The notes under the pieces: generated by a model
Told to the model about the DNA's origin: nothing
What the model saw: only the letters and a program-made list of their open reading frames with translations
Databases searched by the model: none
Shown here: positions 32,912 to 50,640 of the stretch, in pieces
Numbering within the stretch: position 1 is the stretch's first letter
How the letters are laid out: each line of letters begins with the position of its first letter
NCBI RefSeq assembly: GCF_014873755.1
Contig: NZ_JADBEG010000001.1
Coordinates: 5,625,501 to 5,689,500 of the forward strand
Origin: Amycolatopsis lexingtonensis
GTDB lineage: Bacteria; Actinomycetota; Actinomycetes; Mycobacteriales; Pseudonocardiaceae
Direction of reading: 5' to 3'
DNA length: 64,000 nucleotides
Program-made: the position numbers and the translations under genes

Positions 32912-33003
32912 GGTTCCATCCTGGCACGCGCGCCGGACGGTTTCACCGGGTCCCCCGGCCGGTCCGCTTGGCAGGACGGCGCCGCTGGGGCAGGCTCGGC
33001 CGG

Positions 33004-33411
33004 GTGCACATCCGGCGTGACGTGAAGGTGGGGCTGTCGGTCGCCGCCGCCGTCACGTGGATCGGCGCGGTGTCGCTGCTCATCGGGCACCAGCCGGATC
33101 CGGGCGCGGCGTCGCCCGGCGAGCTGCGCGATCGCCTGGCCACCGCGCTTTCCGCGCACGACGCCGACGCCTTCGCCGGCCTCCTCGACTACCCCGGCTC
33201 CGGCGGCGGCGACTTCGCGAAGGACTACGTCGCGGTGCTGACCGACCACGGCGTCCACGACGTCCGGGTGGCGCTCGGACCGGACGCCGCCGCGCCCTCG
33301 CGCGCCACGGTGACGGGCACGCTGGGAGACGGGCGGCCGTTCAGCTACCCGCTGACGGTGACGAGCGAAGACGGCCGGTGGACGGTCGCCTTCACCCCGC
33401 CGCTGCCGTAG
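33004..33411 (+). CDS. Small membrane-anchored protein, unknown
   Basis: 135 aa from GTG at 33004 ([13 protein letters not shown]). One N-terminal membrane segment (~8-30: [20 protein letters not shown]), then a mixed alpha/beta exported part: [52 protein letters not shown]. The latter half resembles NTF2-like lipoprotein domains (short helix then beta sheet), but this is weak. Abuts the convergent thiamine-binding gene with no gap. Confidence 0.65.
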
Positions 33412-34921: not shown

Positions 34922-37309
34922 CTAGTCGGAACACGGGGAAATCGGTGCTGCGGAGGGCGAAGTGCCCCATGTCGCCTTCGCGACATCCGCAGTCAAGGAG
35001 AAGTCCAGCGTCGCCCCGCGCTTGAGCTGGTCGACGCCGACGTAAACCTTGTCACTGGGCTTCGAGCCGACCTTCAGGCCCGAGACGTACTGCAGCTTCG
35101 AGCCGTCCGCGCCGGACGCCTTGATCGTGATGTCGCGCCCGTTCTCCAGGTGCAGCACGGACTTCTCGAACCGCGGCGCGTTCAGCACGAAGTTCCCAGT
35201 CCCTGGGACGGCGGGATAGAGGCCGAGCGCGCTGAAGACGTACCAGGCCGACATGGTGCCGAGGTCGTCGTTCCCGGTGACGCCGTTGGGCGCGTTGGTG
35301 AACAGCGTGTGCGCCGCCCGCACGACCGTCGACGTCTTCGCCGGCTGCCCGGTCAGCGCGTACATCCACGGCGAGTGCAAGTCGGGCTCGTTGTTCGGGT
35401 TGTAGCGGAACTGGTCGTAGTAGTCGTACGGGCCGACCACCCAGTTTTCCCGGACCGCCGTCGCCGGGTTCTTCACCAGCTCGTCGTAGGCGAAGAAGTC
35501 GTCGAGGCGCTTCCCGGTGGCCGCCGGGCCGCCCATCCGCTGGACCAGGCCGGGGACGTCCTGCTGGACCAGCCACTGGTACTGCCAGGCGGTGCCCTCG
35601 TGGAAGCCGTCCTGGCTCTGCGGGCTGTACGGCTTGTCGGCGGGGCTGAACCAGGCGCCGCCGAGGACCTTCGGCCGGAAGAAGCCGGTGAAGCCGCGGT
35701 CGGTCTGCGTTTCGTCCCACAGCGTCCGGTAGGTCCGGCCCTTCTCCTTCAGCGCGGCGGCGTCGTCCTTCTTGCCGAGCGCGGCGGCCATGACCGACAG
35801 CGAACAGTCACCGAGCGCGTACTCCAGGGTGGCCGACGCGCCGTGGTTGGGGTCGGTGTCCTGCCCCTTCTTGGGGAAGTCCGGGTCGTACTGGACGAAG
35901 CCGTCCTGCTGGTAGCTCGCGTTGCCCGAGCGGCCCTGGAACGGCGACGCCGCGGGCGGGATCTGCGTCGAGTTCTGCAGGAGCGCCTGGTAAGCGTGCG
36001 CTTCCTCGCCCGACAGCGCGCCGAACCGCCAGAGGTCGACCAGGAACGGCGTGACCGGGTCGCCGGTCATCGTGTTCGTCTCCTGGCTCGCGTACGCCCA
36101 CCGCGGCAGCCAGCCGCCCTGGTCGTGGATGGCGAGGATGCTCTTGGCGATGTCCTTCGCGCGACTCGGCCGCAGCAGCGCCAGGAGCTGGTTCTGGGAC
36201 CGGTAGGTGTCCCACAGCGAGAAGAAGTCGTAGTACGTCCAGCCGGTCGCGCGGTGGATCTTCTTGTCGAAGCCGTAGTAGCGGCCGTCGGCGTCGTTCG
36301 CGGTCAGCGGCTGCAGCAACGCGTGGTAGAGCGAGGTGTAGAACACCGTGCGGTCGTCCGTCGTGCCACCCTTGATGTCCACAGTGGACAACTCGTGCCG
36401 CCAGGTGCGCTCGACCGCGTCCTTGGCCGCGTCGAACGACCGGATCTTCTCCGACGCCAGGTTGACCCGCGCGCCCTGCGCGTCCACCTGGGAGATCGCG
36501 GTGGTCGCGGTGACCTGGCCGCCGCCCGCGAACGTCAGCCACGCGCCACGGAGTCCCGCGCCACCGCTCGACTCGCGGCTGCCCGGGGTGCCGCCGGTCG
36601 GCGACCAGGTGCCCGAGGACTTGAACGGCTTGTCGAACTTCGTCGTGAAGTACGTCGTGTAGGCCTTGCCGCCGCAGAACGCCTGGGACTCCACGGTTCC
36701 TTCGACGGTCCGGTCGTCGACGACGCGGATGCTGCTGCCGGTAACCGGTTCCTTGTCGTTCGCCTGCCCGACGTTGACGAAGACGTTGGCGTCGCCCGGT
36801 TTCGCGAACGTGTACCGCTCGACGCCCGCGCGGGTCGCCGCGGTCGTCTCGACGTCGACGCCGCCGTAGCCGGTCAGGCGGACCTTGTAGTAGCCGGGCT
36901 TGCCGACCTCGCCGTCGTGCGTGAACGGCGACGCGTACAGCTTCTGGTCGAAAGTGGACGCCTTCGTCGTGTCGAACGCCTTGCCGGGGCCCACTTCCCC
37001 GGTCGTCGGCAGCGTCGAGACCAGGCCGCCCTGCTCCCAGCAGCCCGCGCCGGACAGGAAGAAGTGCCCGAACCCGCGGATGGCCGTGTCGGTGTAGCGG
37101 TACCCGGCGTAGTGCGAGGTGATCGGGCTGACCTGCGTCATCCCGAACGGCGCCGAGGCACCCGGGAAGGTGTTCCCTTCGTCCTGCGTGCCGATGAACG
37201 TGTTGACGGCGCCGAGGGCGTCGCCCCCGGCCGCCGAAGCGACGACGGGACTCACCCCCGTCGCCACCACGGCGAGCGCCAATGCGCCCGCCAGGACCTT
37301 GCTCTTCAC
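34922..37309 (-). CDS. Secreted GH92 alpha-1,2-mannosidase (short form)
   Basis: 795 aa from GTG at 37309 with GGAGGAAGC upstream. Signal peptide: VLAGALALAVVATGVSPVVASA. GH92 landmarks: VNTFIGTQDEGNTFPGASAPFGMTQVSP, YRYTDTAIRGFGHFFLSGAGC, YHALLQPLTANDADG, the general-acid region GFHEGTAWQYQW, and GNDDLGTMSAWYVFSALGLYP with the base Asp pair. Calcium-dependent exo-mannosidase removing terminal mannose from N-glycans or mannan outside the cell. It lacks the extra C-terminal domains of its neighbour at 44322. A 12-of-14 copy of the LacI palindrome lies 12 bp upstream. Confidence 0.93.
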   Translation of the reverse strand: MKSKVLAGALALAVVATGVSPVVASAAGGDALGAVNTFIGTQDEGNTFPGASAPFGMTQVSPITSHYAGYRYTDTAIRGFGHFFLSGAGCWEQGGLVSTLPTTGEVGPGKAFDTTKASTFDQKLYASPFTHDGEVGKPGYYKVRLTGYGGVDVETTAATRAGVERYTFAKPGDANVFVNVGQANDKEPVTGSSIRVVDDRTVEGTVESQAFCGGKAYTTYFTTKFDKPFKSSGTWSPTGGTPGSRESSGGAGLRGAWLTFAGGGQVTATTAISQVDAQGARVNLASEKIRSFDAAKDAVERTWRHELSTVDIKGGTTDDRTVFYTSLYHALLQPLTANDADGRYYGFDKKIHRATGWTYYDFFSLWDTYRSQNQLLALLRPSRAKDIAKSILAIHDQGGWLPRWAYASQETNTMTGDPVTPFLVDLWRFGALSGEEAHAYQALLQNSTQIPPAASPFQGRSGNASYQQDGFVQYDPDFPKKGQDTDPNHGASATLEYALGDCSLSVMAAALGKKDDAAALKEKGRTYRTLWDETQTDRGFTGFFRPKVLGGAWFSPADKPYSPQSQDGFHEGTAWQYQWLVQQDVPGLVQRMGGPAATGKRLDDFFAYDELVKNPATAVRENWVVGPYDYYDQFRYNPNNEPDLHSPWMYALTGQPAKTSTVVRAAHTLFTNAPNGVTGNDDLGTMSAWYVFSALGLYPAVPGTGNFVLNAPRFEKSVLHLENGRDITIKASGADGSKLQYVSGLKVGSKPSDKVYVGVDQLKRGATLDFSLTADVAKATWGTSPSAAPISPCSD

Positions 37310-37321
37310 TGAGCTTCCTCC

Positions 37322-37335
37322 TGCCAACGATGTCA
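37322..37335. promoter_or_regulatory. Degenerate LacI operator before the first GH92 gene
   Basis: TGCCAACGATGTCA, 12 of 14 matches to TGACAACGTTGTCA. Lies just above the ribosome-binding site of the GH92 gene at 34922-37309, where a bound repressor would block transcription. Confidence 0.55.
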
Positions 37336-37412: not shown

Positions 37413-37847
37413 TCAGCCGGCGAGCGCGAACGCCGTCACCCGCACCGTTCCGGTGTCGCCGGTCCGCCGGGCCTCGACCACCAGCTCGGCACTCGGGGCG
37501 ACGGCGACTTCGTGGCGGCCGACGTCGCCGGTGACCGCGAAGGTTTCGGCCACTTCGCCGTCCACGACCACCCGCACCTCGCCTTCGCTGTCGCCCACGG
37601 CCTCGAGCACGACCACGAACGCGCCGGGCCGGGTGAGCAGCCGGACGAGCGGGGTCCAGCTCGCCGAGGCCGTGCCGGGCCAGTCCTGCGGGCGCGCCGG
37701 CTGGAAGGCCACCGCGGAGCTGGGCGCGGCGGCCGACGCCGCCGTGAACGCCGCGGCGGCGTGGCGGGTGCCTTCGAGCACGCGCAGCCGCCGCTGGATC
37801 TCCCGCAGCAGCGTGACGAGGGTGTCCGGCTGGTTGACGCGGCTCAC
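37413..37847 (-). CDS. Small tail-appendage protein, phage-tail module
   Basis: 144 aa from GTG at 37847, overlapping the preceding stop by GTGA. The first ~30 residues (VNQPDTLVTLLREIQRRLRVLEG) form a short coiled coil of the kind that trimerises phage fibres. Residues ~60-144 are beta-rich: WTPLVRLLTRPGAFVVVLEAV, VRVVVDGEVAETFAV, LVVEARRTGDTGTVRVTAF, like a small jelly-roll. Last gene of the module; possibly a tail-tip or decoration protein. Not identifiable by name. Confidence 0.7.
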   Translation of the reverse strand: MSRVNQPDTLVTLLREIQRRLRVLEGTRHAAAAFTAASAAAPSSAVAFQPARPQDWPGTASASWTPLVRLLTRPGAFVVVLEAVGDSEGEVRVVVDGEVAETFAVTGDVGRHEVAVAPSAELVVEARRTGDTGTVRVTAFALAG

Positions 37848-38956
37848 GACGGCTCCAGGAACGGTTCGACGGTCAACACGACTTCTTCCTGCCCGGCGTC
37901 GTCGCCGGGCGTGACCGACAGCCCGAGCAGCCGGACGGTGACGTCGAGCTGGTCCCCGGCGAAGAACGGGTCGGCCACAACGATCCGCGCGTCGTCGCCG
38001 ACCGAGTACGACCCGACGACCGGGTCGAGGTCGGCGCGCACGGTCAGCTCGGGCAGCACGACCGGCCGCCGCCGCGCGGCCAGCTCCCCGGCGACGTGCG
38101 CGGCGAGCATGGCGGCGTCGGTGGTGTCCACCGGCGCGGCCGCGGCTTCCAGCAACGGCCAGCCGCCCGCCGTCGCGCCCGGATCCGACCGCACCACCGG
38201 CACGCCCCCGCCGCCGGCGTTCCCCATCCCGAGCACCCGGGTCGCCATGCTCGCGGCGTCGCTCGGCCAGACGAAGTCGACCAGGTTCGCGCCGTACTCC
38301 CAGACGAACGCGCGCTCCCCGCCGGGCAGGCCCAGGCGCGGGTACCCCAGCCGCAGCAGGCGTTCCGGCTGGCCGCTCTCGTCGTAGCGGACGTCGAAGG
38401 CGAAGTCGAACCCGGTGTCGGTGTTGGCGAGGTCCCGCAGGACCTCCGCGACCGACTTCAGGTCGGCCGAGGCGTAGCTCACCGTGCGCAGGACGCCGGA
38501 GCTCGCCGAGCCGGTCACCACCACCCCGAGGTCGCCGCCGTCCGCCGACTGCGCGAGGTCGAGCAGCCCCCGCACGATCGCGAGCTGGTCGGTGGCGGTG
38601 AACGAGACCGGCTTGGTCAGGTCCGCGGGGTCGAGGACCAGCCGGTGGTCGAAGTAGGACGCGAAGTCGGCGGCGGTCAGCTCCAGCACCCCGCCGGCCG
38701 CGCTGTAGCGGCTGGTCCAGACGATGCCGCCCCACACGAGGTCGCCGTCGCGGTCGACGTAGACCGCGGTGCGGCCCGGCTCGGCGAGCAGCCGCGGCTC
38801 CCGGATCCGGATCTCCGGGTCGTCGACCCGCAGCTGCCCGCGCAGCGTGCCGGTGTCGTTGAGCTTCTTGTCGAACTGCACGCCGGACAGCGGGAGCTCG
38901 TCCAGGACCGCGCCGGTGCGCAGGTCCGCGATCAGGTAGGTGTACGACGTGCCCAT
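37844..38956 (-). CDS. Siphovirus ReqiPepy6 Gp37-like tail protein
   Basis: 370 aa from ATG at 38956 (MGTSYTYLIADLRTGAVLDELPLSGVQF). The start, KKLNDTGTLRGQLRVDDPEI and YVDRDGDLVWGGIVWTSRYSAAGGVLELTAADFASYFDHRL are hallmarks of the Gp37-like family in actinobacterial siphophages, a hub-type protein at the tail tip (gp27/Tal-like fold by function). In phages it joins Dit to fibres. Part of the tail module; overlaps the next gene. No catalytic domain seen. Confidence 0.82.
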   Translation of the reverse strand: MGTSYTYLIADLRTGAVLDELPLSGVQFDKKLNDTGTLRGQLRVDDPEIRIREPRLLAEPGRTAVYVDRDGDLVWGGIVWTSRYSAAGGVLELTAADFASYFDHRLVLDPADLTKPVSFTATDQLAIVRGLLDLAQSADGGDLGVVVTGSASSGVLRTVSYASADLKSVAEVLRDLANTDTGFDFAFDVRYDESGQPERLLRLGYPRLGLPGGERAFVWEYGANLVDFVWPSDAASMATRVLGMGNAGGGGVPVVRSDPGATAGGWPLLEAAAAPVDTTDAAMLAAHVAGELAARRRPVVLPELTVRADLDPVVGSYSVGDDARIVVADPFFAGDQLDVTVRLLGLSVTPGDDAGQEEVVLTVEPFLEPS

Positions 38957-38965
38957 CCGCTGCGC

Positions 38966-39910
38966 CTAGTAGGTGGAGAACGTGAGGCCGTCGAGGGACA
39001 ACCAGCCGGCGTTGCCCGTGGTCGCCATCACCTCACCGGTCGGCAGGATGTCCACCCGGCCGTGCGCGTCCGGGTTGGTGGAGACGCCGAGCAACCAGTG
39101 CGCGACCGGCCGGTAGCCGACCGGCAGGGTGAAGATCGCCTTGTCGAGCAGGCCGTTGCGGACCAGGCCGCGCAGCCGCACCCAGCCGTCGTCCATCAGC
39201 GTGTAGGCGGCCGTGGTGAACCCGCTGCCGTAGTTGACCCAGCTGTTCTGCAGGGTCGGCGCGTGCCAGGTGTCGCCGCGCGGCGGGCGGTAGGGCGCCC
39301 ACACGCCGCCGCGCTTGCACAGCAGCACCCCGGTGTCGAGGCGGTAGACGAACTGGCTGCTGTGCGTGGTCGCGACGGGCGGGAGATCGGTTTCACCGCG
39401 CACCGGCAGGATCCCGCTGAGGGCGGAGGTGAACTGGCGGCGGTCGACGACCGTGGGCGCGGTGCCCGCCGGGGGCACCTGGACCTCGGCCAGCACGAGC
39501 ACCGGGGACCCGTTCGGCGTCGGCCGCACCGGGCTGGCCGCGTTCTCCCCCGCGTAGACGTTCACCGCGAACGCCCCGCCGACGATCTCCGCGACCACCA
39601 GGTCCAGCCGGGACAGCGACGCGTGCGCCGCGCCGAAGGGCAGCTCCTTCACCGCGTCCAGCGTGACGATGTAGGGACCGTCGCCCGGCCGGGCCCGGTC
39701 GGTGAGCACGGCCTGGAACGGGTTGACCCGCAGCTTGTTCGACGCGATCGCGACCGACCCGGGCGTACCCGGCGCGTCCCGGATCCCGGGGCGCGCCCGC
39801 AGCGGGTCGAGCGCGTCGCCGGTCGCGTCCGCCTGCACCAGTGCCCCGGTGATCAACCGCGCTTCGGCCGAGTCGACGCCGTCGACCCACCCCGCGTGCC
39901 GTTCCGCCAT
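38966..39910 (-). CDS. Tail-fibre-like protein of the tail module, candidate receptor binder
   Basis: 314 aa from ATG at 39910 (MAERHAGWVDGVDSAEARLITGALV). N-terminal ~160 residues carry VDRRQFTSALSGILPV and LSRLDLVVAEIVGGAFAVNVYAGE, seen in minor tail proteins of actinophages. C-terminal ~100 residues (QNSWVNYGSGFTTAAYTLMDDGWVRLRGLVRNGLL, IFTLPVGYRPV) resemble the receptor-binding head domain of tail fibres. Placed between Dit and the Gp37-like hub gene. Likely decides target specificity of the particle. Confidence 0.72.
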   Translation of the reverse strand: MAERHAGWVDGVDSAEARLITGALVQADATGDALDPLRARPGIRDAPGTPGSVAIASNKLRVNPFQAVLTDRARPGDGPYIVTLDAVKELPFGAAHASLSRLDLVVAEIVGGAFAVNVYAGENAASPVRPTPNGSPVLVLAEVQVPPAGTAPTVVDRRQFTSALSGILPVRGETDLPPVATTHSSQFVYRLDTGVLLCKRGGVWAPYRPPRGDTWHAPTLQNSWVNYGSGFTTAAYTLMDDGWVRLRGLVRNGLLDKAIFTLPVGYRPVAHWLLGVSTNPDAHGRVDILPTGEVMATTGNAGWLSLDGLTFSTY

Positions 39911-39932
39911 CGCAGCTCCCCCTTCTCGCTCT

Positions 39933-40802
39933 TCAGATCCACGCGTCCCGCCAGCGGGCGGTCAGCGTGCCCGCTTCGGCGTCGTCGAAAGCCTCGAACC
40001 CGATCGTCGTGCTGCCCGGCGGGAGCCCGAACCAGCTCGACCGCGGCTGCAGCACCGAACGGCGCGAGGCCGTGCCGAGGAACACCGTGCGCGCGGCCGT
40101 GTCGACGGTCAGCACGTCACCTTCGGCGAGGCTCAGCGAGAACGCGAGCCGTTCGCCGGTCGAATCGTTGCGGATCACCGGCTGCGTGCACGGGCCGGTG
40201 ATCGTCCACACCGGACGCGTCGTCGCCGTGCCGGCGTTCACCAGCGCCAGCGCGCCGCCGTCGGCCTGCCCGAACACCAGCGGGAAACCGAGCGGGAAGG
40301 TGATGCCCTGTCCCGGTTTCGGCAGCCCGCAGGACAGCTCGTGGACTTCTTCGCCGTAGCGCAGCGGGTCGGGCGCGGTGAACTGCAGGGACCAGTCGAA
40401 GCTCACCGGTGTCGTGTCGGAGACCTTCGTGCCGGCCGAGAGCCGGACCAGCGCGCGGCGCGTCACGGTGCGCTCCCGCACGACGAACTCCGCCGGCGCC
40501 GAGCCGTCGGCGAGCACGGCGGCGATCCGGTCCTTCGCCCGCTCGCGGCTGTCCTCGTCGGGCGCGACGGCGGTGCCCTCCAGGGTGATCACCCGCGCCG
40601 AGCGGAACGACGGCGCGTCGAAGGCGCCGTCGCGCTGCGGCCGGTCGGCCAGCTCGAGCCGCACGCCGGGGCCGGCCGACCAGCCGTCCTCCTTGGTGAC
40701 CCACCACTCGACGCCGTCGGCGTCCACGGTGTTGCCGGCCCAGCCGTCCAGCTCGTACACCGGCAGCGCGAGCGACACGGCACTCAGCGTTTCGCCGCCC
40801 AT
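39933..40802 (-). CDS. Distal tail (Dit-like) protein
   Basis: 289 aa from ATG at 40802, overlapping the tape-measure gene end by 19 bp. Two-domain layout of siphovirus Dit proteins: N-terminal sandwich (PVYELDGWAGNTVDADGVEWWVTKEDGW, RSARVITLEGTAVAPDEDSRERAKDRI, WSLQFTAPDPLRYG) and C-terminal galectin-like half (NAGTATTRPVWTITGPCTQPVIRNDSTGERLAFSLSLAEGDVLTVDTAARTV split over the region). It closes the tail tube and anchors the tip proteins. Confidence 0.82.
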   Translation of the reverse strand: MGGETLSAVSLALPVYELDGWAGNTVDADGVEWWVTKEDGWSAGPGVRLELADRPQRDGAFDAPSFRSARVITLEGTAVAPDEDSRERAKDRIAAVLADGSAPAEFVVRERTVTRRALVRLSAGTKVSDTTPVSFDWSLQFTAPDPLRYGEEVHELSCGLPKPGQGITFPLGFPLVFGQADGGALALVNAGTATTRPVWTITGPCTQPVIRNDSTGERLAFSLSLAEGDVLTVDTAARTVFLGTASRRSVLQPRSSWFGLPPGSTTIGFEAFDDAEAGTLTARWRDAWI

Positions 40803-42421
40803 GCCACCTCCCGGGCCGCGACGCGGCCGATCTCGTATTCGGACTGGCCCGCCCGCGGGTGCACGTTGACCGTCACCGCGCCCGAACCGGCCGGCGTGGA
40901 GCGGGCCACCGGGCCCACGGCGGACGCCGCGACCGCCTTCGTCAGGTTCGCCACCGCCGGCCGGATGGTGGCCGAGCCCGGCAGCGGCACCAGCCGGGTC
41001 ATCGCGCCGGAGACCTGGTCGCCGCTCGCCTCGATGCCGACCGTCAGCCCGGCCCCGATGTTGCGGCCGATGTCGGCCATCACCTGCGACGGCGAGAAGA
41101 TCTTGAGGACGTTCTTGATCGGGCCGGGGATCTTGTCGACGATGAAGTTCTTGATCGCCGAGACGATGTTGCCCGCCATGTCGCGGATGCCGCCGATGAA
41201 CCCTTCGATCAACGACTTCCCGGCGCTGTAGAGCGTCTTCCCGATGTTGCCGAGCGCGCCGACGACCCGGCCGGGCAGCCCGCGCACGAACGAAACGACC
41301 CCGGAGATGGCGTTGCTCACCGCGGACTTGGCCTGGTCGAAGGCGTTCCGCACGATGCCGACCACCTGGCTGACCCCGCGGATCGTCGCGACGACCGTGT
41401 GGATCGCGCCGGTGACCACCGCCTTGACCGCGTTGAACACCGCCGTCACCACGGTCTTGACGATGGTGAAGTACGTGGTGACGTAGGTGCGGATGACGGT
41501 GACCGCGACTTGGATGACCTTCGCGATGTAGGGCCACACCACCGCGACGACGCCGCGGATCGTGTTCACCGCCCCCAGCACGACGTTCTTCACGGCCGTG
41601 AAGACGGCGTTGACGATGTTCCGGAACGTCGTACTCCGGTTGTAGGCCAGCACGACCGCCGCCACGAGCAGCGTGATCGCGGTGATGATCAGGCCGATGG
41701 GGTTCAGCCGCATGACGACGTTGAGCAGTGCCTGCGCGATCGACCAGAGCCGGGTCGCCACGGCGACGACGCGTTGCGCGACGGCCATCGCCACCGTCCG
41801 CGCGGTCGCGATCACCGCCTGGACCGCGGTTTTCGCGTAGGCGACGGCGAGCTGCGCCAGGTTCCGCACGGCGCCCGCGGCGGCCAGTGCCGTGCTCCGG
41901 GCTTGGGCCGCGAACCGGCCGATCGCCTCCCCCGCGCTCGTCGCGGCTTGGCGGGCGGCGGCGAGCCCCTGGCTGAGCGAGCCCCGCAGCGACGTCCCGA
42001 GGTCGCGGATCGCGCCCGGGGCGCTCTTGACCATGTTCTTGAGGTCGTTGCCGAGCTTCTGCACTTCGGCCGCGCTTTCGCGCAGCCCGGTGCGCAGGTC
42101 CTTGATGGCGCCCGGCAGTTCCTTCATCGCGGCCGCGGCGTCCTTGACCTGCCCGACGGTGTTCTGCACGGCGGTCGACGCGGTGTTGATCGCGTCCGCG
42201 AAGCCCACCACGTCGGTGACCGCCGCGGTCACCGCCGGATGCGTCTCCTTGAACTTGGCGGTCATCTCGCCGAGTTCCTTGTTGACGTGCTCGGTGAACC
42301 CTTCGGTCAGCTTCGTCGCCGCGTCGGAGACGGCGCTCGTGATCGACTCGCGGATGCCGTCGATCAGCGCCGTCACCTGGGCCTGCGCCGCGTTGGTGAT
42401 GGCCGACGTCGGCTGCGTCAC
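40784..42421 (-). CDS. Tape measure protein of the tail module (short)
   Basis: 545 aa from GTG at 42421 with GGGAGGTGAG upstream. Long helical protein without globular domain: N-terminal ~170 residues of coiled coil, many Val/Ala repeats of the form TVRNIVNAVFTAVKNVV, a hydrophobic segment LNPIGLIITAITLLVAAVVLAY near 270, and phage-like C-terminal SAGKSLIEGFIGGIRDMAGNIV and KIFSPSQVMADIGRNIGAGL. At about 1.5 angstrom per residue the tail would be only ~80 nm. Typical siphophages have larger ones. The gene begins 4 bp after the gpGT stop. Confidence 0.88.
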   Translation of the reverse strand: MTQPTSAITNAAQAQVTALIDGIRESITSAVSDAATKLTEGFTEHVNKELGEMTAKFKETHPAVTAAVTDVVGFADAINTASTAVQNTVGQVKDAAAAMKELPGAIKDLRTGLRESAAEVQKLGNDLKNMVKSAPGAIRDLGTSLRGSLSQGLAAARQAATSAGEAIGRFAAQARSTALAAAGAVRNLAQLAVAYAKTAVQAVIATARTVAMAVAQRVVAVATRLWSIAQALLNVVMRLNPIGLIITAITLLVAAVVLAYNRSTTFRNIVNAVFTAVKNVVLGAVNTIRGVVAVVWPYIAKVIQVAVTVIRTYVTTYFTIVKTVVTAVFNAVKAVVTGAIHTVVATIRGVSQVVGIVRNAFDQAKSAVSNAISGVVSFVRGLPGRVVGALGNIGKTLYSAGKSLIEGFIGGIRDMAGNIVSAIKNFIVDKIPGPIKNVLKIFSPSQVMADIGRNIGAGLTVGIEASGDQVSGAMTRLVPLPGSATIRPAVANLTKAVAASAVGPVARSTPAGSGAVTVNVHPRAGQSEYEIGRVAAREVAWAAKR

Positions 42422-42425
42422 GGGC

Positions 42426-42824
42426 TCACCTCCCTGGAGTGCCGAAGAACGCGGCGATCTCGTCGGTGCTCGCCGCCGGGTCGGGTTCGGGCGCCACACC
42501 CGGGCGCGGGACCGGCCGCGGCCGGTCGGGCTGGTCGGCGCCCTCGGCGGAGTTGGCCGCGACGAACAGCCAGTTGCCCACCGCGAGCTCGTCGACCGCG
42601 CCCGCGAGCAGGTGCTCGGTCAGGCCCCACTCGGCCGCCTCGCCGTGCAGGGCGCGCACCAGCGCCGACTCGCGGGGCAGGTGCCGGATCAGCACCCGCA
42701 GCCGCCTCGGCGTCAGCTTGCCGCGGTAGTAGTCGAGCAGGTCCACCCGGTAGAACCGGAGCAGGTCGGCTTCGACGGCCTCGCCGTGCTCGCTCAGGAG
42801 CGCGTCGAGGCCGAGGATTCCCCC
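42426..42824 (-). CDS. gpT part of the gpG-T tail assembly chaperone (made by -1 frameshift)
   Basis: No independent start codon or ribosome site; entered by slipping at 42818-42824. After the slip the product reads GILGLDALLSEHGEAVEADL, then LRFYRVDLLDYYRGKLTPRRLRVLIRHLP, ending STDEIAAFFGTPGR at the TGA 42426-42428. The motif DLLDYYRGKLTPRRL with RVLIRHLPRESAL is the usual T domain of actinophage tail assembly chaperones. The fusion chain starts at 43102. It coats the tape measure protein and recruits major tail subunits. Confidence 0.8.
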   Translation of the reverse strand, partial: GGILGLDALLSEHGEAVEADLLRFYRVDLLDYYRGKLTPRRLRVLIRHLPRESALVRALHGEAAEWGLTEHLLAGAVDELAVGNWLFVAANSAEGADQPDRPRPVPRPGVAPEPDPAASTDEIAAFFGTPGR

Positions 42825-43102
42825 AGCGCCATACCGGTGTCCCGGCCGTAGGCCTCCAGCAGGGCCTGGACGTCCTGCACGCTCACCGCGTGCCGGCCGA
42901 GCTTCTCGAACTGCTCCGCGCCGAGCAGTACCTCGAGCAGACCGTCCAAATCGGACGGATCGAGACCGGACAGCCGCGCCACCGCTTCCCGGGGCAGCTC
43001 GGTCGGCAGGCTGAACGTCTCGCCGTCCAGCTCGAACTCCCAGCGCTCCCCCAGGGCTTCCAGACGCTGCGCGCGGACGGCGTTGACGTTGTACTTCGCC
43101 AT
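42794..43102 (-). CDS. Tail assembly chaperone gpG
   Basis: 102 aa from ATG at 43102 (MAKYNVNAVRAQRLEALGERW). Two-thirds of it (EFELDGETFSLPTELPREAVARLSGLDPSDLDGLLEVLLGAEQFEKL) is typical of tail assembly chaperones placed between major tail and tape-measure genes in siphophages. Near the end the frame passes CTG GGG GAA, a slippery site, and then stops at 42796. A fraction of ribosomes shift to make the longer gpG-T. Both products help fold the tape measure. Confidence 0.85.
   Translation of the reverse strand: MAKYNVNAVRAQRLEALGERWEFELDGETFSLPTELPREAVARLSGLDPSDLDGLLEVLLGAEQFEKLGRHAVSVQDVQALLEAYGRDTGMALGESSASTRS
42818..42824 (-). other. Programmed -1 ribosomal frameshift site (GGGGGAA)
   Basis: On the minus strand the sequence is GGGGGAA, in phase as G GGG GAA, the classical -1 heptamer used in mycobacteriophage and related gpG/gpGT genes. 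It lies 22 bp before the gpG stop, and the -1 frame continues for about 130 codons of phage-like sequence. Confidence 0.82.
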
Positions 43103-43125
43103 TTCGTGCGTTCCCCCTCGCCCGC

Positions 43126-43704
43126 TCACGCGGACTTTTCTTCGGCGGCGGCGGCACCCGCGGCCGGGTTGATCGACCACTGCGCGAGCGGCTCGGACGT
43201 GCTGTTGATCGGTGTCATCGCGGTGAACGTGACGCCGAGCTTGATCGCCGACGTCCGGGTGATCGCGGTTTCGTCGGTCTCGGTGACGACCCCGCGCGGG
43301 ATGTAGAACCGGTGCTTCACGTTCGGGCCGTCGCTGAACTCGATGCCGAGCGCGCGTTCGTCGACCCGGGGCGCGGCGGCGATGTTGTAGACGCCGTTCG
43401 TCCCCGCGGGTGCGCTGAAGAAGAACTGCAGGGTGTCGCTGTTGATCTGCAGCAGCGAGAACTTCGCGGAGAAGTCGCGGTCGCTGAAGACGTACCGGAT
43501 CGCGGCCACCGACTGCCAGGTGTCCACCGGGTCCAGCTTGTCCTTCTTGACGAACTTGACGCCGTCGGCGGTGGTGTAGCCGAGGTCGACCCACGGCGAG
43601 GCCCACGGCTTGGTGAAGTCGGCCGGTGCGGCGGTGTGCGCCGGCGCCACGTAGATGGCCCCGGTTCCCGCCACCCGGATTTCGCTGGCGTTCAGTCCTG
43701 GCAT
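43126..43704 (-). CDS. Major tail protein of the tail module
   Basis: 192 aa from ATG at 43704 (MPGLNASEIRVAGTGAIYVAP). Typical siphovirus tail-tube sequence: VDLGYTTADGVKFVKKDKLDPVDTWQ, VAAIRYVFSDRDFSAKFSLLQINSDTLQFFF, DGPNVKHRFYIPRGVVTETDETAITRTSAIKLGVTFTA. Builds the hexameric tail tube. Slightly short, no added Ig-like domain. Placed upstream of gpG, as in phage operons. Confidence 0.88.
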   Translation of the reverse strand: MPGLNASEIRVAGTGAIYVAPAHTAAPADFTKPWASPWVDLGYTTADGVKFVKKDKLDPVDTWQSVAAIRYVFSDRDFSAKFSLLQINSDTLQFFFSAPAGTNGVYNIAAAPRVDERALGIEFSDGPNVKHRFYIPRGVVTETDETAITRTSAIKLGVTFTAMTPINSTSEPLAQWSINPAAGAAAAEEKSA

Positions 43705-43736
43705 GAGCAGCCCTCCCACTGCACCGCCGGCCCGGT

Positions 43737-44156
43737 TCAGGCCGGTCTGGATACGACTAGCGCGACGAACCGGTACCGCATGACGTACCGGTTCGCGTCG
43801 GAATGCCTTCGGTCGAGCACGAAGCACGGCCCCTGGAGCTCGGTCACGTCGGGGAACACGGTGCCGCCGGAAGCGCTCAAGATCGGCAGCACACCCCGCA
43901 CGGCCAGCGCGACCGCGTGCGCCGCGGGCTTGTCCGGACCGTAGGAATCCAGCCGCACCTCGGCGTTGTCGAGCCGGTCGTCGTCGAGGTAGACGCCGCC
44001 GAGCCGGGTGAGCACCACGGCGCGCTGCGTCCCGTCGAAGCCCGGCGGCACCGAAGTTCCCACCGGCACACCGGACAGTTCCGGCCGCGCGCGCACGAAC
44101 TCCGCGACGGCCTGCTCGACATCCGGGAACACCAGCGGTTCCTGGGCGATCGGCAC
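43737..44156 (-). CDS. Tail terminator-like protein of the tail module
   Basis: 139 aa from GTG at 44156 (VPIAQEPLVFPDVEQAVAEF), with GGGGGAA upstream; a GTG at 44168 is possible. Layout matches gpU/tail terminator proteins of actinophages: VEQAVAEFVRARPELSGVPVGTSVP, RAVVLTRLGGVYLDDDRLDNAEVRLDSYG, AVRGVLPILSASG, NRYVMRYRFVALVV. Forms the ring that stops tube growth and would meet a head connector. In this module no connector, portal or head gene follows on either side; it is the first gene of the cluster. Confidence 0.75.
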   Translation of the reverse strand: MPIAQEPLVFPDVEQAVAEFVRARPELSGVPVGTSVPPGFDGTQRAVVLTRLGGVYLDDDRLDNAEVRLDSYGPDKPAAHAVALAVRGVLPILSASGGTVFPDVTELQGPCFVLDRRHSDANRYVMRYRFVALVVSRPA

Positions 44157-44277
44157 GATTTCCCCCACCTCCCCACTCCCCTTGGGGTGTGACCAACCTA
44201 ACGCACCCGTCAGCACCCGCAAGCGGCCGAACGGGCGATGACACTGGCCGGATCCGGCCAATCCGCCTGCAGCGGAA

Positions 44278-44309
44278 CGGCCCCCTTCCCGTGCGCGGGA
44301 AGGGGGCCG
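44278..44309. terminator. Hairpin terminator between GH92 gene and tail module
   Basis: CGGCCCCCTTCCCG (44278-44291) and its perfect complement (44296-44309) around TGCG. It lies just past the second GH92 gene's stop and ~120 bp before the tail module's first gene, so the tail module must have its own promoter in 44157-44277. Confidence 0.82.
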
Positions 44310-44321
44310 TCGCTCTGTGGG

Positions 44322-47300
44322 CTACGCGCCGATGCCGATCGCGAACACGTGCAGCGCACCGCCGTTGACGTTGTCCGGCAACGTCACGCTGGCAACGGTC
44401 TTGCCCGCGTCCAGGGTGATCGGGTTGGTGCCGAACACCATCGTGCGGATCTGCTGCGGGTCGCCGCCCGAGGCGTTGCGGTACGGCGTCGACAGCACGA
44501 TCCGGTTGCCGAACGCCGGCTGCGCGCCGCCGCCACCGAGGGTCCAGTCGGAGAACCCGATGGTCGCGGTGGACGTCGTGCCGTCGGTGTAGGTCACCGT
44601 CAGCGTGCCGGACGCGTTGCCGTTGGACGCCGAGCCGAGCAGCGCGAGCCGCCCGGAACCGGTCACGTTCACCTTCTGACCGGACGCGATCACGTTGTCC
44701 GGATCGCCCACCGGGAACGACGGCCAGGTGAACTTGATGCCGTCACTGGTGACCGTGCCGCCCGGGGTGGCGCCGGCCGCGGCCAGCGCGTCGGCCGAGT
44801 AGCTCCAGCCGCCGCCGTCGAAGTTGGCCGCGCCCGAGTTCGCATCCGGGGAGATGCCGGCGTTGTTCACCGTGGCCAGCCAGCTGTTCGGCTGGGCCAC
44901 CAGTACCGTCAGGACGGCCTGCGTCGAGGCGAGCCCCGGCGACGAGAACGTCACCGGGATGCGGCGGGCGCCGTCGGCCAGCCCGGCCGGGACGCTCACC
45001 GTCAGCTCGGCCTTACCCTTGCCACCGGCCGGAACCGCGATGCTGCCCGACGCGGGGGTCAGCGTGATCCCGTCGACGCTGCCCGCGCTGTAGGTCCAGG
45101 TCCGGGCGACCCCCGAAAGGTCCTGGACCCCCACCGACGCCTGCGACGTCGACCCCGCGGGCGTCACCGCGCGCGCCGGGTCCACAAAGGACAGGCTGGG
45201 CTTCTCCTGCTCTCGGAACGACGGCGGTGCGTCGGCCGCCGCGCTGCCCCACGCGGTCGCCGTGGCGGACCGGGTGTAGTCGAGCGTGCCGCCACTGGAG
45301 ATCAGCGCCTCCGGCAGCCACGCCTTGGCGGCCGCACCGCCGTTGACCTTCAGGCTGCCCACGTAGTCGCCGGTGCCCGGCGCGTTGACGGTGACCTTCT
45401 TGCCCGAGCCGGTGGTGAGCACGGCGTGCTCGAAGCGCGGGGTGACGAGCAGCGTCTCGGCGCGGCCCGGGATCTCCGGGTAGAGGCCGAGCGCGGACCA
45501 CACGTACCAGGCCGACATCTGGCCGAGGTCGTCGTTGCCGATCAGGCCTTCGGGACGCGGGTTGTACAGCTGGTCCATCGAGCGGCGCACGATCGACTGG
45601 GTCTTGGCCGGGGCCCCCGCGTACGAATACACGTACGGCGCGTTGGAGTTCGGCTCGTTGCCCATGAACGCGTACGGCTCCTGCGTGCCCGCGTTCAGGT
45701 CGGTGAAGAAGGTGTCCAGCCGCGACTGGGTCGCGGTGTTCCCGCCGAACGCCGTGACGACGCCGCCGAGGTCGTAGGGCACCATCCACTCGTACTGCGC
45801 GCCGTTGCCCTCGACCCAGCCCTCCGAGCTGGCGGGGTCGTAGGTGCCGGCGAACGAGCCGTCCGCGTTGCGCGGCTGCAGGTGCCCGGTACCGGGGTTG
45901 TAGAGGTTCTGCCAGTTCTGCGCGCGCTTCATGAACGTCGTGTACGTCGCGCTGTCGCCGAGCCGCTTCGCGAACTGGGCGATGGAGAAGTCGGCGCTGG
46001 TGTACTCGAGCGTGTCCGCACCGGCGCCGGGCACGTACCCGAGCTTCTGGTAGTCGTCGAGGCCCGGCCGCTCGGTGTAGCCCTGCGTCGGCTGGGTGGC
46101 GCCCTTGATCATGAGCAGCAACGCCTTCTGGGCGTCGAAGTCACGGGCGCCGAACGCGTACGCGCTGGAGACGATGATGTGGTACGGGTCGCCGTTCATG
46201 ACGCCGGTGTAGTCATTGGCCACGGTCCAGCGGTCCCACGAACCGCCCTGTTCCGCGTAGGCCATCATCGACCGGACGATGTCCGACGTCTCGTGCGGCG
46301 CGATCGTCGCCAGCAGCGGGATCTCCGAGCGGTAGATGTCCCAGCCGGAGAAGTTCGTGTACATCGCGTGGCCCTTGCCGGCCGTGTGGATCCGGCCGTC
46401 GAAGCCGATGTACTGGCCGTTGACGTCGGAGAACACGTTCGGCTGGATCAGCGAGTGGTACAGCGAGGTGTAGAACGTCGTCATGTCGGCGTCGGAGCCA
46501 CCGGTGACGGCGATCTTGCCCAGCTGGGCGTTCCACGCCTTGCGCGCGCCCGCCGCGACGGTGTCGAAGGACTTGCCGGTGTTTTCGGCCTTCAGGTTGG
46601 CCTTCGCGCCGTCGACGGACACAAAGGACAGTCCGACCTGGACGTTCACCTGGGCGCCGTTGAGGTTGGCGAAGGTGACGTACCCGCCGCTGCCCGGGCC
46701 GGACACGGTGGTGTCCTGCTGCTTGGCGGTGGTGGTGCGCGCGATCGAGGCGTTGACGCCGTTGGGCTGCGCGACCTTCGCCTTGGCGCCACCGGTCTCC
46801 GCGGCCTTGTTCGGCGTCACGGCGCCGTTCTTCCACGTGCCGATCGAGGCGAACGGCGTGTCGAACTTGGCCGAGAAGTAGACGCGGTAGCTGTTCTGCG
46901 CGCCGCAGAAGCGGCCGCTCGTGGCCCAGCCGCTGATGGTGTCCTTGCCGATGCTGATCGACGCGTCGTCGGTGCCGTTGACCGAGCCGGAGGTGTTGAC
47001 CAGCAGCGTCGAGGACGCGCCGGCCGGGTAGGTCAGCCGCGCGGAGCCGGTGCGCTGGGTCGCGCTCAGTTCGACCTTCGCGCCGCTGTCGAGGGTGACG
47101 TCGTAGGCGCCCGCGGTCGCGTGTTCGTTGGTGTGCGAGAACTTCGAGGTGTAGTGCGACGGGTCGGTCGCCGGGGAAGTCGTCACTTCGCCGACATAAG
47201 GGATGAACGGGATGTCCTCATAGGTCGAACAGCCCGCGCCCGAAAGGTGCGTCAGACTGAACCCGGTGAGGGCATTGTCGTCGTAGAAGTACCCGCCCGG

Positions 47301-47552
47301 CTGGGATTTCACCGTGTCCGGGCTCCACTGGACCATGCCGAACGGCGCCACCGCGCCCGGGAACGTGTTGCCGGCCCCGCCCCCGGTGCCGTGGTCGGCG
47401 CCGCCGGGCCGGGTGCCGACGAAGGGGTTGACCCACTTCGCGAAATCCGTGCTCGTGGCCGCCGAGGCGGGGACAGCGGGAGCCACCGCTGCCGTCACCG
47501 CCAGTGTCAAAAAGGTCAAACCGGCTCTGAAGCGCAATCGCGCCATGGCCAT
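44322..47552 (-). CDS. Secreted multidomain GH92 alpha-mannosidase
   Basis: 1076 aa from ATG at 47552 (MAMARLRFRAGL); the ATG two codons later, at 47546, has the better spacing to GAGG and may be the true start. Signal peptide to about ASAA. GH92 catalytic part ~35-760: VNPFVGTRPGGADHGTGGGAGNTFPGAVAPFGM, HLSGAGC, YHSLIQPNVFSDVNG, SEGWVEGNGAQYEWMVPYD (acid Glu) and GNDDLGQMSAWYVWSALGLYP (base Asp). Next a NEW3-type domain (~790-890, PAGGKGKAELTVSVPAGL) and a C-terminal carbohydrate-binding-like sandwich. Hydrolyses terminal alpha-mannose from glycans. Confidence 0.93.
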   Translation of the reverse strand: MAMARLRFRAGLTFLTLAVTAAVAPAVPASAATSTDFAKWVNPFVGTRPGGADHGTGGGAGNTFPGAVAPFGMVQWSPDTVKSQPGGYFYDDNALTGFSLTHLSGAGCSTYEDIPFIPYVGEVTTSPATDPSHYTSKFSHTNEHATAGAYDVTLDSGAKVELSATQRTGSARLTYPAGASSTLLVNTSGSVNGTDDASISIGKDTISGWATSGRFCGAQNSYRVYFSAKFDTPFASIGTWKNGAVTPNKAAETGGAKAKVAQPNGVNASIARTTTAKQQDTTVSGPGSGGYVTFANLNGAQVNVQVGLSFVSVDGAKANLKAENTGKSFDTVAAGARKAWNAQLGKIAVTGGSDADMTTFYTSLYHSLIQPNVFSDVNGQYIGFDGRIHTAGKGHAMYTNFSGWDIYRSEIPLLATIAPHETSDIVRSMMAYAEQGGSWDRWTVANDYTGVMNGDPYHIIVSSAYAFGARDFDAQKALLLMIKGATQPTQGYTERPGLDDYQKLGYVPGAGADTLEYTSADFSIAQFAKRLGDSATYTTFMKRAQNWQNLYNPGTGHLQPRNADGSFAGTYDPASSEGWVEGNGAQYEWMVPYDLGGVVTAFGGNTATQSRLDTFFTDLNAGTQEPYAFMGNEPNSNAPYVYSYAGAPAKTQSIVRRSMDQLYNPRPEGLIGNDDLGQMSAWYVWSALGLYPEIPGRAETLLVTPRFEHAVLTTGSGKKVTVNAPGTGDYVGSLKVNGGAAAKAWLPEALISSGGTLDYTRSATATAWGSAAADAPPSFREQEKPSLSFVDPARAVTPAGSTSQASVGVQDLSGVARTWTYSAGSVDGITLTPASGSIAVPAGGKGKAELTVSVPAGLADGARRIPVTFSSPGLASTQAVLTVLVAQPNSWLATVNNAGISPDANSGAANFDGGGWSYSADALAAAGATPGGTVTSDGIKFTWPSFPVGDPDNVIASGQKVNVTGSGRLALLGSASNGNASGTLTVTYTDGTTSTATIGFSDWTLGGGGAQPAFGNRIVLSTPYRNASGGDPQQIRTMVFGTNPITLDAGKTVASVTLPDNVNGGALHVFAIGIGA

Positions 47553-47591: not shown

Positions 47592-47605
47592 TGACAACCT
47601 TGTCG
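47592..47605. promoter_or_regulatory. LacI operator before the second GH92 gene
   Basis: TGACAACCTTGTCG, 12 of 14 to the consensus TGACAACGTTGTCA, 40 bp upstream of the mannosidase start. Together with 37322, 47794 and 49674 it marks one regulon. Confidence 0.65.
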
Positions 47606-47792: not shown

Positions 47793-48845
47793 ATGACAAC
47801 GTTGTCTCCACCCGGCCGGGACCGGGACGGCGCCACGCGCACCGCGAGCAGGCGAGCCACGATGAGCGACGTGGCCCGCCTGGCGGGCGTGAGCATCAAG
47901 ACCGTTTCGCGCGTGGTCAACGACGAACCGGCGGTGCACCCGGACACCGCCGAGCGGGTCATGGCGGCCATCGAGCAGCTGGGGTTCCGGCGCAACCTGG
48001 GCGCGCGCAACCTGCGCCGCGGGTCGACGACCGGCACCATCGGGCTGATCGTCGAGGACGTCGGCAACCCCTTCTACTCCGAGCTGAACCGCGCGGTCGA
48101 GCGCATCGCGACGTCGTTCGGGCGCCAGGTGCTCACCGGCTCGTCCGAGGAGAACTCCGACCGCGAGCGCGAGCTCGTGCTGGAGTTCTGCGCGCGGCGG
48201 GTGGACGGCATCCTCGTCGTCCCCGCCGGCCTGCAGCACGGCTACCTGGTGCCGGAGATGCGCGCGGGCACGCCGGTGGTGTTCATCGACCGCCCGGCCG
48301 GCGACATCGTGGCCGACACGGTGCTGGTCGACAACCTCGGCGGCACCATCGAAGCCGTCACCCACCTGGCGAAGCACGGGCACCGGCGGATCGCCTTCCT
48401 CGGCGACAGCCCGGACATCTTCACCGCGGCCGAGCGCCTGCGCGGCTTCCGCGAAGGCTGCGTCCGCAACGGCATCTCCTACGACGAGTCGCTCGTCTCC
48501 ATGCGCACGCCGACGCCGGAGTACATCGGCGACGTGGTGAAGCGCCTGCTGCACGGGCCGGACGCGGCCACCGCGGTGATCGCGGGCAACAACCGGGTCG
48601 CCGTGCACGTGCTGCGCGCGCTGGCCCACGCCGAGCACCGGCCGGCGATGGTCGGCTTCGACGACTTCGAGCTGGCGGACCTGCTCGACCCGCCGGTCAC
48701 CGTGATCGCGCACGACGTGAGCGCGCTCGGCCACGCCGCGGCCGAGCTGCTCTTCGCCCGCGTCCAAGGAGACCAGTCCCCGCCCAGAAAGGTAGTCCTG
48801 CCCGTGCATCTCGTCGCCCGTGGTTCCGGTGAGGTCGCCCCGTGA
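47793..48845 (+). CDS. LacI-family repressor of the mannoside regulon
   Basis: 350 aa from ATG at 47793. The first codons (MTTLSPP) are themselves encoded by the operator. HTH at ~24-45: MSDVARLAGVSIKTVSRVVNDEPAVHPDTAERV, hinge and then a sugar-binding domain (TIGLIVEDVGNPFYSELNRAVE, RRVDGILVVPAG, VVFIDRPAG, RRIAFLGDSPDIFTAAERLRGFREGC, MVGFDDFELADLLDPPVTVIAHD). It probably binds mannose or a derivative. Divergent from the large GH92 gene; overlaps manA by 4 bp. The operator over its start codon implies autorepression. Confidence 0.92.
   Translation: MTTLSPPGRDRDGATRTASRRATMSDVARLAGVSIKTVSRVVNDEPAVHPDTAERVMAAIEQLGFRRNLGARNLRRGSTTGTIGLIVEDVGNPFYSELNRAVERIATSFGRQVLTGSSEENSDRERELVLEFCARRVDGILVVPAGLQHGYLVPEMRAGTPVVFIDRPAGDIVADTVLVDNLGGTIEAVTHLAKHGHRRIAFLGDSPDIFTAAERLRGFREGCVRNGISYDESLVSMRTPTPEYIGDVVKRLLHGPDAATAVIAGNNRVAVHVLRALAHAEHRPAMVGFDDFELADLLDPPVTVIAHDVSALGHAAAELLFARVQGDQSPPRKVVLPVHLVARGSGEVAP
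47794..47807. promoter_or_regulatory. LacI operator over the lacI start codon
   Basis: TGACAACGTTGTCT, 13 of 14 to the consensus. The ATG of the regulator begins at base 47793, so a bound dimer would cover the start of its own gene. Confidence 0.7.
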
Positions 48846-49879: not shown

Positions 49880-50640
49880 GCGAAATCCTCCTGGAAGCGG
49901 TCGACCTCACCAAGCACTACGGCTCCGTCGAAGCGCTGCGCGGCGCGTCTTTCCAGGCCCGCGCGGGCGAAGTGACCGCGCTGATCGGCGACAACGGCGC
50001 CGGCAAGTCCACTTTGGTCAAATGCCTCTCCGGTGCGGAGCAGCCGACGTCGGGGAAGATCCTCCTCGACGGCGCCGAGGCGCACTTCGACTCGCCGACC
50101 ACCGCGCGGCGCCTAGGCATCGAAACCGTTTACCAAGACCTCGCCGTCGCCCCCGAGCTCGACCCGGCGGCGAACCTGTTCCTGGGCCGCGAAATCCACC
50201 GCAAGGGCATCCTCGGCAAGCTCGGGATGCTCGACAAGGCTGAAATGCGCCGCCAGGCCGTCGAGGAGTTCCAGCGCCTCGGCGTGACGCTGCAGAGCAC
50301 CGACGTCCCCATCGGCTCGCTGTCCGGCGGACAGCGCCAGAGCGTCGCGGTGGCGCGGTCGGTCGTGTGGGCGTCGAAGGTCGTGTTCATGGACGAGCCG
50401 ACCGCGGCGCTGGGCGTCGTGCAGCGCGAGCGCGTGCTCGACGTCATCAAGAAGGTGCGCGACAAGGGCATCGCCGTGGTGCTGATCAGCCACAACATGC
50501 CGGAGGTGCTGTCGGTGGCCGACCGCGTCGAGGTGCTGCGGCTCGGCAAGCGCGTCGCCCGGTTCAGCGGGCCGGACACGAAGCTCGAAGACCTCGTCGC
50601 CGCGATGACCGGGGCGCTCGTGCAAGAGGAGGCCGCGTGA
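49876..50640 (+). CDS. Sugar ABC transporter ATPase (single-domain)
   Basis: 254 aa from ATG at 49876. Walker A LIGDNGAGKSTLVK, Q-loop IETVYQDLAVAPELDP, signature SLSGGQRQSVAVAR, Walker B VVFMDEPTAALGVVQ, switch VVLISHNMPEVLSVADRV. One nucleotide-binding domain, as in FrcA, whereas RbsA-type proteins have two. Energises the permease encoded next (50637). In the mannose operon behind LacI and manA. Confidence 0.92.
   Translation: MSEILLEAVDLTKHYGSVEALRGASFQARAGEVTALIGDNGAGKSTLVKCLSGAEQPTSGKILLDGAEAHFDSPTTARRLGIETVYQDLAVAPELDPAANLFLGREIHRKGILGKLGMLDKAEMRRQAVEEFQRLGVTLQSTDVPIGSLSGGQRQSVAVARSVVWASKVVFMDEPTAALGVVQRERVLDVIKKVRDKGIAVVLISHNMPEVLSVADRVEVLRLGKRVARFSGPDTKLEDLVAAMTGALVQEEAA

Follow-up and report, generated by a model that had tools for sequence, protein, structure and literature searches.

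What is a set of phage-tail genes doing, with no phage head beside it, between two alpha-mannosidase genes on the chromosome of the soil actinomycete Amycolatopsis lexingtonensis? The question is raised by a module of nine intact reading frames (with GT counted as the extension of G) running from 44156 to 37413 on the minus strand of the window, by which we mean the whole 64,000-nucleotide stretch analysed (contig NZ_JADBEG010000001.1, positions 5,625,501 to 5,689,500), in a genome, G000, that is a single 10.7-Mb contig. Because the locus holds a complete but headless tail set that is under selection and common to several genera, it probably provides a tail-like particle for the host's own use. 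The reading that we favour, with some reserve, is of a chromosomally settled operon whose product would be a headless tail of siphophage type, a short and non-contractile particle much like an F-type tailocin.

A first-pass annotation had described an uninterrupted run of tail genes with intact frames, and profile searches against PHROGs and Pfam bear this out by putting names on eight of the nine genes, small tip protein SM being the ninth. Along the minus strand these are a tail terminator of 139 aa (43737..44156; phrog_123, 2.5e-15); the major tail (tube) protein, 192 aa (43126..43704; PF25681, 4.5e-54, and phrog_117); tail assembly chaperone G, 102 aa (42794..43102; phrog_10551, 4e-19); the GT extension, read after a frameshift (42426..42822, 5′ edge approximate), whose match to phrog_5813 (2.5e-27) is to the C-terminal part of GT proteins; a tape measure of 545 aa (40784..42421; phrog_58, 6e-50); a Dit-like distal tail protein of 289 aa (39933..40802; PF22768, 1e-13, and phrog_5577, 1e-53); a fibre-like tip protein of 314 aa (38966..39910; phrog_3398, 6e-15); a Gp37-like tail hub protein of 370 aa (37844..38956; phrog_1885, 1e-75, with PF14594 below its cut-off); and SM, 144 aa (37413..37847), which matches phrog_9849 weakly (2e-4). 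In the PDB the Dit profile also picked out entry 2x8k (0.0018), which we take to be the Dit of phage SPP1; sequence searches of the PDB gave no match for the fibre and tube proteins and weak matches alone for SM, whose N-terminus is conserved (a helix, as judged by eye) and whose C-terminal domain is variable. An NCBIfam scan gave one match, far below its cut-off, and an anti-phage defence family was rejected as a candidate, a single weak ZorA match (0.0064) being all that was seen.

This tail gene set is thus, by PHROGs and Pfam, of the non-contractile (siphophage) type, and no tail sheath was matched among the nine proteins (for the tape measure, among the 25 of 32 PHROG families listed). 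Tail length follows a rule of approximately 0.15 nm per tape-measure residue, by which 545 aa would give a tail of ~82 nm, in agreement with the ~80 nm estimated at first pass. A repetitive region of the tape measure also matches phrog_971, a family named endolysin; Pfam gave no wall-hydrolase family for this protein, and a lytic domain was not recognised. Between G and GT we propose a -1 frameshift at CTGGGGGAA (42818..42826, minus strand): in all 23 loci examined TGGGGGAA occupies this position and GT lies in the -1 frame. The site is not a canonical X-XXY-YYZ slippery heptamer, and the strict pattern did not match; it is from the conserved letters and the frame that we infer slippage at the junction.

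Siphophages also carry head genes; here such genes were looked for both locally and genome-wide. Within 7 kb on each side, no head gene was found in the 10 of 12 called genes that were scanned (those at 32968-33411 and 50637-51680 lay outside the scan). By their matches all ten belong to bacterial families (enzymes, transporters, the LacI and MarR regulators, or DUFs), and they include the two GH92 alpha-mannosidases, an ABC ATPase, the LacI regulator and an isomerase-like cupin; neither among them nor among the nine module genes did PHROGs or Pfam identify a holin, a lysin or a phage regulator. For the neighbours scanned, the earlier statement that no head, lysis or regulatory phage genes lie within 7 kb therefore holds. 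The whole G000 genome, moreover, gave no match to PF03354 (TerL), PF05065 (capsid), PF04860 and PF05133 (portals) or PF03237 (terminase), whereas such searches do give matches in control genomes. Head genes elsewhere in G000, raised at first pass as one observation that would tell against domestication, are rejected for these five families.

As a control we took the distant homologues of Dit (31-41% identity), 20 in all, in the 20 genomes given to the head searches. For 17 of them a portal or a terminase was matched 7-18 kb upstream in the same orientation (the case in G099 near 1.80 Mb rests partly on below-cut-off matches), and at an exception, G032:C22 (L125), PHROGs found terminase, portal and capsid. 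By comparison, no head match was seen at the module locus in any of its ten carriers (G000, G005, G008, G014, G020, G032, G056, G060, G064 and G097). Eight of the ten (G005, G008, G014, G020, G032, G056, G060 and G097) do have a portal or terminase match elsewhere in the genome, as might suit a module that supplies tails to a gene transfer agent or satellite with its head genes at a distance. These matches, however, are either on a different contig or over 1 Mb away from the module, several of them beside a second, distant Dit, and neither G000 nor G064 gave a match to any of the four head families run on both. Judged by capsid, portal and terminase, a gene transfer agent finds none of five head families in G000, and we consider this explanation very unlikely.

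Two of the carriers hold further tail genes. At G064:C1 (L124, 1052-6341) and G097:C6 (L126, 13166-19767) there are terminator, tube, tape measure, Dit and fibre-like genes (a phrog_2595 terminator/connector, a phrog_3884 tube, tape measures of 515 and 593 aa, Dit proteins at 36-37% identity and a phrog_3398 fibre-like protein). The ORFs (open reading frames) scanned there (9 of 19 and 8 of 19, respectively) gave neither terminase nor portal nor capsid, and no head family beyond the fibre-like phrog_3398 and connector matches, which are to families that the main module also resembles. The two sets look like a second, distant type of tail-only set in genomes that carry the main module as well.

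Is the module peculiar to one strain? A search with a Dit profile says otherwise, with 20 loci (51-94% identity) in named genomes belonging to eight genera (Amycolatopsis, Actinophytocola, Kutzneria, Kibdelosporangium, Crossiella, Streptomyces, Nocardiopsis and Virgisporangium), a 21st match, in Mycetocola (32% Dit identity), being an outlier. All nine genes are matched, in identical order, in 15 of the 20; three loci have one small gene below threshold (SM in L035 and L050, the terminator in L047) and two (L031 and L045) end at contig edges. L047 is also the exception among the 18 loci uncut by a contig end, in 17 of which the terminator is matched. Neighbouring genes vary by genus (DnaE-like, ImuB-like, MMPL, GH26, penicillin-binding protein, Hsp70, glutamate dehydrogenase and others). 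Thirty genes near other family loci were scanned with Pfam: 28 match a family, two match nothing, and there is no phage family and no holin-lysin gene among them. For 118 flank ORFs from 13 loci, the 25 of 63 PHROG families listed name no head, integration or lysis function, many of these 25 being without description and the other 38 having one member each at E-values above 4e-29, so that a phage gene in the flanks might have escaped notice; this ORF set left out L041, L043, L045, L065, 9 of 13 ORFs of L063 and the SM of L035, and the flanks of L036 and L044 were under-called (4 and 8 ORFs).

Within Amycolatopsis the family is present in 9 of 80 genomes, G000 included (ten pass 1e-40; G069, and in G064 a second locus, are distant homologues that were not counted as carriers). 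Amycolatopsis eburnea and A. pretoriensis are examples of carriers. Across 396 genomes of the phylum, with six candidates scored per genome, G000 was the sole match at 1e-40, and beyond the genera named above the family seems to be rare. The actinobacterial siphophages (such as Streptomyces phage Attoomi and Arthrobacter phage Sonali) have homologous Dit, tube and Gp37-like proteins; no phage record reaches 60% identity with these module proteins, the highest being 33.6% among the matches listed (20 of 141, 8 of 343 and 8 of 69 for the three proteins). Plasmid records likewise stay below 60% (at most 32.4% among the matches listed). Viral contigs bearing two short Dit motifs, by which relatives carrying those motifs are detectable, gave four loci at 28-34% identity.

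The family has two subtypes, one with the single fibre gene seen in the window, the other with two fibre-like genes, a shorter tape measure and an extra ORF before it. The second is found in Streptomyces, Virgisporangium, K. philippinense and Amycolatopsis G032, and the tree groups G014 and G020 with it. Here an ORF of 211-340 aa is followed by a tape measure of ~374-399 aa (L044:7905-10019, L036:8148-10019, L050:7835-10019), which might suggest a tape measure in two pieces. The second ORF is the tape measure, and the preceding one has no clear relation to the tape measure of the window; at several of these loci there are stops in the tape-measure frame across the preceding ORF. Near the K. 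philippinense module (L036:4046-5161) we also saw a polymorphic toxin-like EndoU nuclease with a type VII secretion system signal. In six of the eight Streptomyces loci the module is followed by DnaE-like and ImuB-like genes (L039:14499-18907; L040-L043 and L049 likewise), named by Pfam in L039 and by clustering in the others. Such a pair is DNA-damage-inducible elsewhere, so that co-regulation with the module is possible in those Streptomyces loci.

A rival reading is of a decaying prophage remnant with no function, and on this the strength of selection bears. Between close relatives the ratio of non-synonymous to synonymous substitution (dN/dS) is below 1 for all nine genes (eight pairs run). 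For G000 and G005 it is, by NG86 and from terminator to SM, 0.17, 0.13, 0.07, 0.03, 0.31, 0.25, 0.18, 0.15 and 0.44, with dS at 0.13-0.27 in the module versus 0.22 in GH92-B, one of the flanking mannosidase genes; SM has the top value of the nine genes in this pair and in G064/G056. These ratios indicate that the module is maintained by purifying selection. Repeated absence at the mannosidase site, and a deletion remnant there in three relatives, are what this reading has in its favour. It is largely refuted by nine intact frames, the dN/dS values, synteny across genera and the frameshift letters, which all 23 loci keep; nor did the motif-bearing viral contigs or the phage records searched include a close phage relative. 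We find it scarcely credible. Domestication, proposed at first pass, is supported by the same headless module in other genera and by this selection between close relatives.

How the module came to lie at this site is a separate question. It is flanked by two minus-strand GH92 alpha-mannosidase genes that mark the site, GH92-A (44322..47552; PF07971, 8e-152) and GH92-B (34922..37309; PF07971, 7e-144), and the first-pass annotation saw an insertion between two co-regulated genes. A recent event of this kind we reject. Between SM and GH92-B, at the GH92-B promoter, is a LacI-operator-like sequence, GACATCGTTGGC (37323..37334, minus strand), and relatives without GH92-A have GACAACGTTGTC at the same place; the module thus lies upstream of GH92-B's own LacI-operator-like promoter, and it is absent from most relatives. 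LacI-operator-like sites at 47795-47806, 47593-47604, 37323-37334 and 49675-49686 lie around LacI and both GH92 genes, one of them inside the cupin gene.

GH92-A and GH92-B are adjacent in 44 Amycolatopsis genomes among the matches listed (pairs being counted from rows chosen in the GH92 match listings): 40 have a gap of -1 to 321 bp and four a gap of 6.8-7.0 kb containing the module. In G060 the module is divided over two contigs, each piece beside its mannosidase, and in G008, on the other deep GH92-B branch, it lies between LacI and GH92-B without GH92-A. The six Amycolatopsis modules at this site form one branch of the module tree (four proteins, 20 loci; fork support 100/99), in which G008 is the first split, provided that the root lies outside. 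In the GH92-B tree the carriers are scattered among empty sites (17 of 43 inner branches are well supported, and the bootstrap had not settled). Between G000 and G008, dS is 0.52-0.87 in the module versus 0.62 in GH92-B. We read this history as a single arrival before the deep split, followed by many losses, and the module looks old at the GH92-B site and often lost from it. Homologous exchange is an alternative for part of this history. Between G000 and G064, dS is 0.26 in the terminator and 0.31-0.36 in tube and G, rising to 0.53-0.67 from GT to SM, versus 0.24 in GH92-B, the pattern expected of allelic replacement or exchange.

A whole prophage at this site in relatives, the other observation raised at first pass as telling against domestication, was seen in none of the gaps viewed: the 44 GH92 pairs (by distance), G008, and 17 of 20 genomes with GH92-B only, the 2 kb fetched for the other three having stopped short of LacI. 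In G079, G019 and G018 (L084, L088 and L093; 2 kb upstream of GH92-B) the gap appears by eye to hold a flavin amine oxidase gene and a TetR-like regulator gene, so that the site may take cargo repeatedly. Might the particle instead work on mannose polymers together with the neighbouring GH92 enzymes? Six modules of one tree branch at the GH92-B site, a GH26 gene beside another module, and the lack of a called terminator between SM and GH92-B (although the scan called none anywhere) lend themselves to such a link, against which stand the unrelated neighbours in other genera and the 40 of 44 adjacent GH92 pairs, among the matches listed, that have no module. We hold this to be most improbable; the mannosidases are neighbours and no part of the tail system.

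The control of the module appears to be its own. Upstream of the terminator, on the minus strand, is a sigma70/HrdB-like element, TTGCGG-16-TAGGTT (44195..44222), identified as a consensus match only; it recurs at -66/-67 in G000, G005, G060 and G064, four of 23 upstream regions, with one further match at -64 in the Actinophytocola region. A stricter scan did not call this promoter, and it called no terminator in the whole stretch, including between SM and GH92-B. A G+C-rich hairpin 3′ of GH92-A (44276..44311, minus strand), seen directly in the letters, was not called by that scan, which requires a T run, and is a probable end of the GH92-A transcript. Particles had been expected after DNA damage (mitomycin, the SOS response), yet none of the 23 upstream regions has an exact LexA-type box and three have one with 1-2 mismatches; SOS control thus finds no support in the sequence, where a vegetative-type element stands instead.

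This combination, a vegetative-type promoter element with no release genes found, would also suit a tail that acts on the producing colony itself, in or on the hypha, in lysis or development, with antagonism secondary, by analogy with the Streptomyces contractile injection system. That system provides the precedent: its excerpted description reports contractile particles in intact hyphae, tied to cell death, and sheath protein outside cells without general lysis (PMC10020575). The window module is like it in being a phage-tail-derived particle cluster of actinomycetes, and unlike it in having a siphophage-type tail with no match to a sheath. An own-colony role is, however, less easily squared with carriage by 9 of 80 genus genomes, unlike a core developmental function, or with the pattern of variability. 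Over eight distant loci (seven for the terminator), mean identity is 57-73% for Dit, hub, tube, GT and G and 48% for the terminator; in the fibre it is 0.44 for residues 1-170 versus 0.26 for residues 207-314, the C-terminus being the most variable stretch, which suggests varied external ligands, and in SM it is 0.62 for residues 1-28 versus 0.38 for residues 29-144. We consider a role within the colony unlikely, if worth keeping in view.

Returning to a headless tail particle of F-type-tailocin-like kind, we propose that the module would be transcribed from its own vegetative-type promoter, that G/GT and the tape measure would build a tail of ~80 nm, and that the terminator would cap it where a head would sit. 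Such a particle would stay in the cytoplasm and be freed on hyphal death, a route suggested by the lack of a lysis cassette; the variable ends of the fibre and SM might then bind surface glycans of other actinomycetes, and the tube or tape measure could open a channel in the target membrane, depolarising it. Killing of bacteria would be compatible with the data.

Several points weigh against this proposal. In contrast to monocins, the locus yielded neither a holin or lysin nor a phage regulator, and an exact SOS box was likewise not found; with no wall-degrading domain recognised in the tape measure, crossing of a thick wall is unexplained. Among the distant loci the tape measure (mean identity 0.33-0.40) is as variable as the SM C-terminal region (0.38), so that variability extends beyond the tip, and the G014/G020 tape measures give a dN/dS of 1.19, the single value above 1 in the eight pairs, where one ORF is a 182-aa fragment aligned at 25% identity. 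A very divergent head could escape Pfam and PHROGs, and patchy presence also fits a costly element that is being lost.

How does the module compare with known tailocins? F-type tailocins have been studied less than R-type ones, according to the excerpts of two accounts (PMC7076858, PMC8910223), and a literature search, at the level of titles and abstract openings, showed among the papers listed no report of a non-contractile tail-only cluster or F-type tailocin in actinomycetes. The monocin of Listeria, as outlined in the excerpted source, is an F-type tailocin of 18 genes with a holin-lysin cassette, listed under SOS-inducing conditions (PMC7076858). Compared with that description, the window module is likewise a headless non-contractile tail cluster on a Gram-positive chromosome, and differs in having nine genes, with no lysis cassette, recognised regulator or exact SOS box found. 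Rhizoviticin, the Allorhizobium F-type tailocin, is described as retaining genes for lysis, replication and phage regulation, with the remains of an integrase beside a tRNA gene (PMC10811719); the module shares its tail genes without head genes, whereas a regulator, replication genes, lysis genes and an integrase remnant were not found in the module, and the window has no tRNA gene. The anatomy is thus like that of an F-type tailocin, and it is because a lysis cassette and rhizoviticin-like regulator and replication genes were not found that we do not file the module as monocin-type.

In three of the 20 genomes fetched, of 23 with GH92-B and no GH92-A match, part of the tip seems to have outlived the tail. 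G048, G042 and G045 have a 121-aa ORF between LacI and GH92-B (L095:1517-1882, L098:1506-1871 and, on the reverse strand, L099 1518-1883), with its own start and 84-89% identical to residues 44-154 of the G008 SM; no other module gene was matched in that interval. Pairwise dN of the ORF is 0.09-0.12 versus a dS of 0.44-0.75, and, dN being well under dS, this intact orphan SM domain has been kept as a protein by purifying selection. One might imagine an undescribed actinomycete weapon in which SM does more than serve as a fibre, and to which the orphan domain gives resistance, as a free receptor-binding head that shields non-producers from the particles of neighbours, or from which it was recruited as a binding protein to some other task; we offer this as an unlikely speculation.

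If our favoured interpretation is correct, this family of nine genes, among which neither a lysis gene nor a phage regulator is recognised, would define a minimal self-contained tail particle across several genera, antibiotic producers among them. The orphan domain would give a handle on how non-producers cope.

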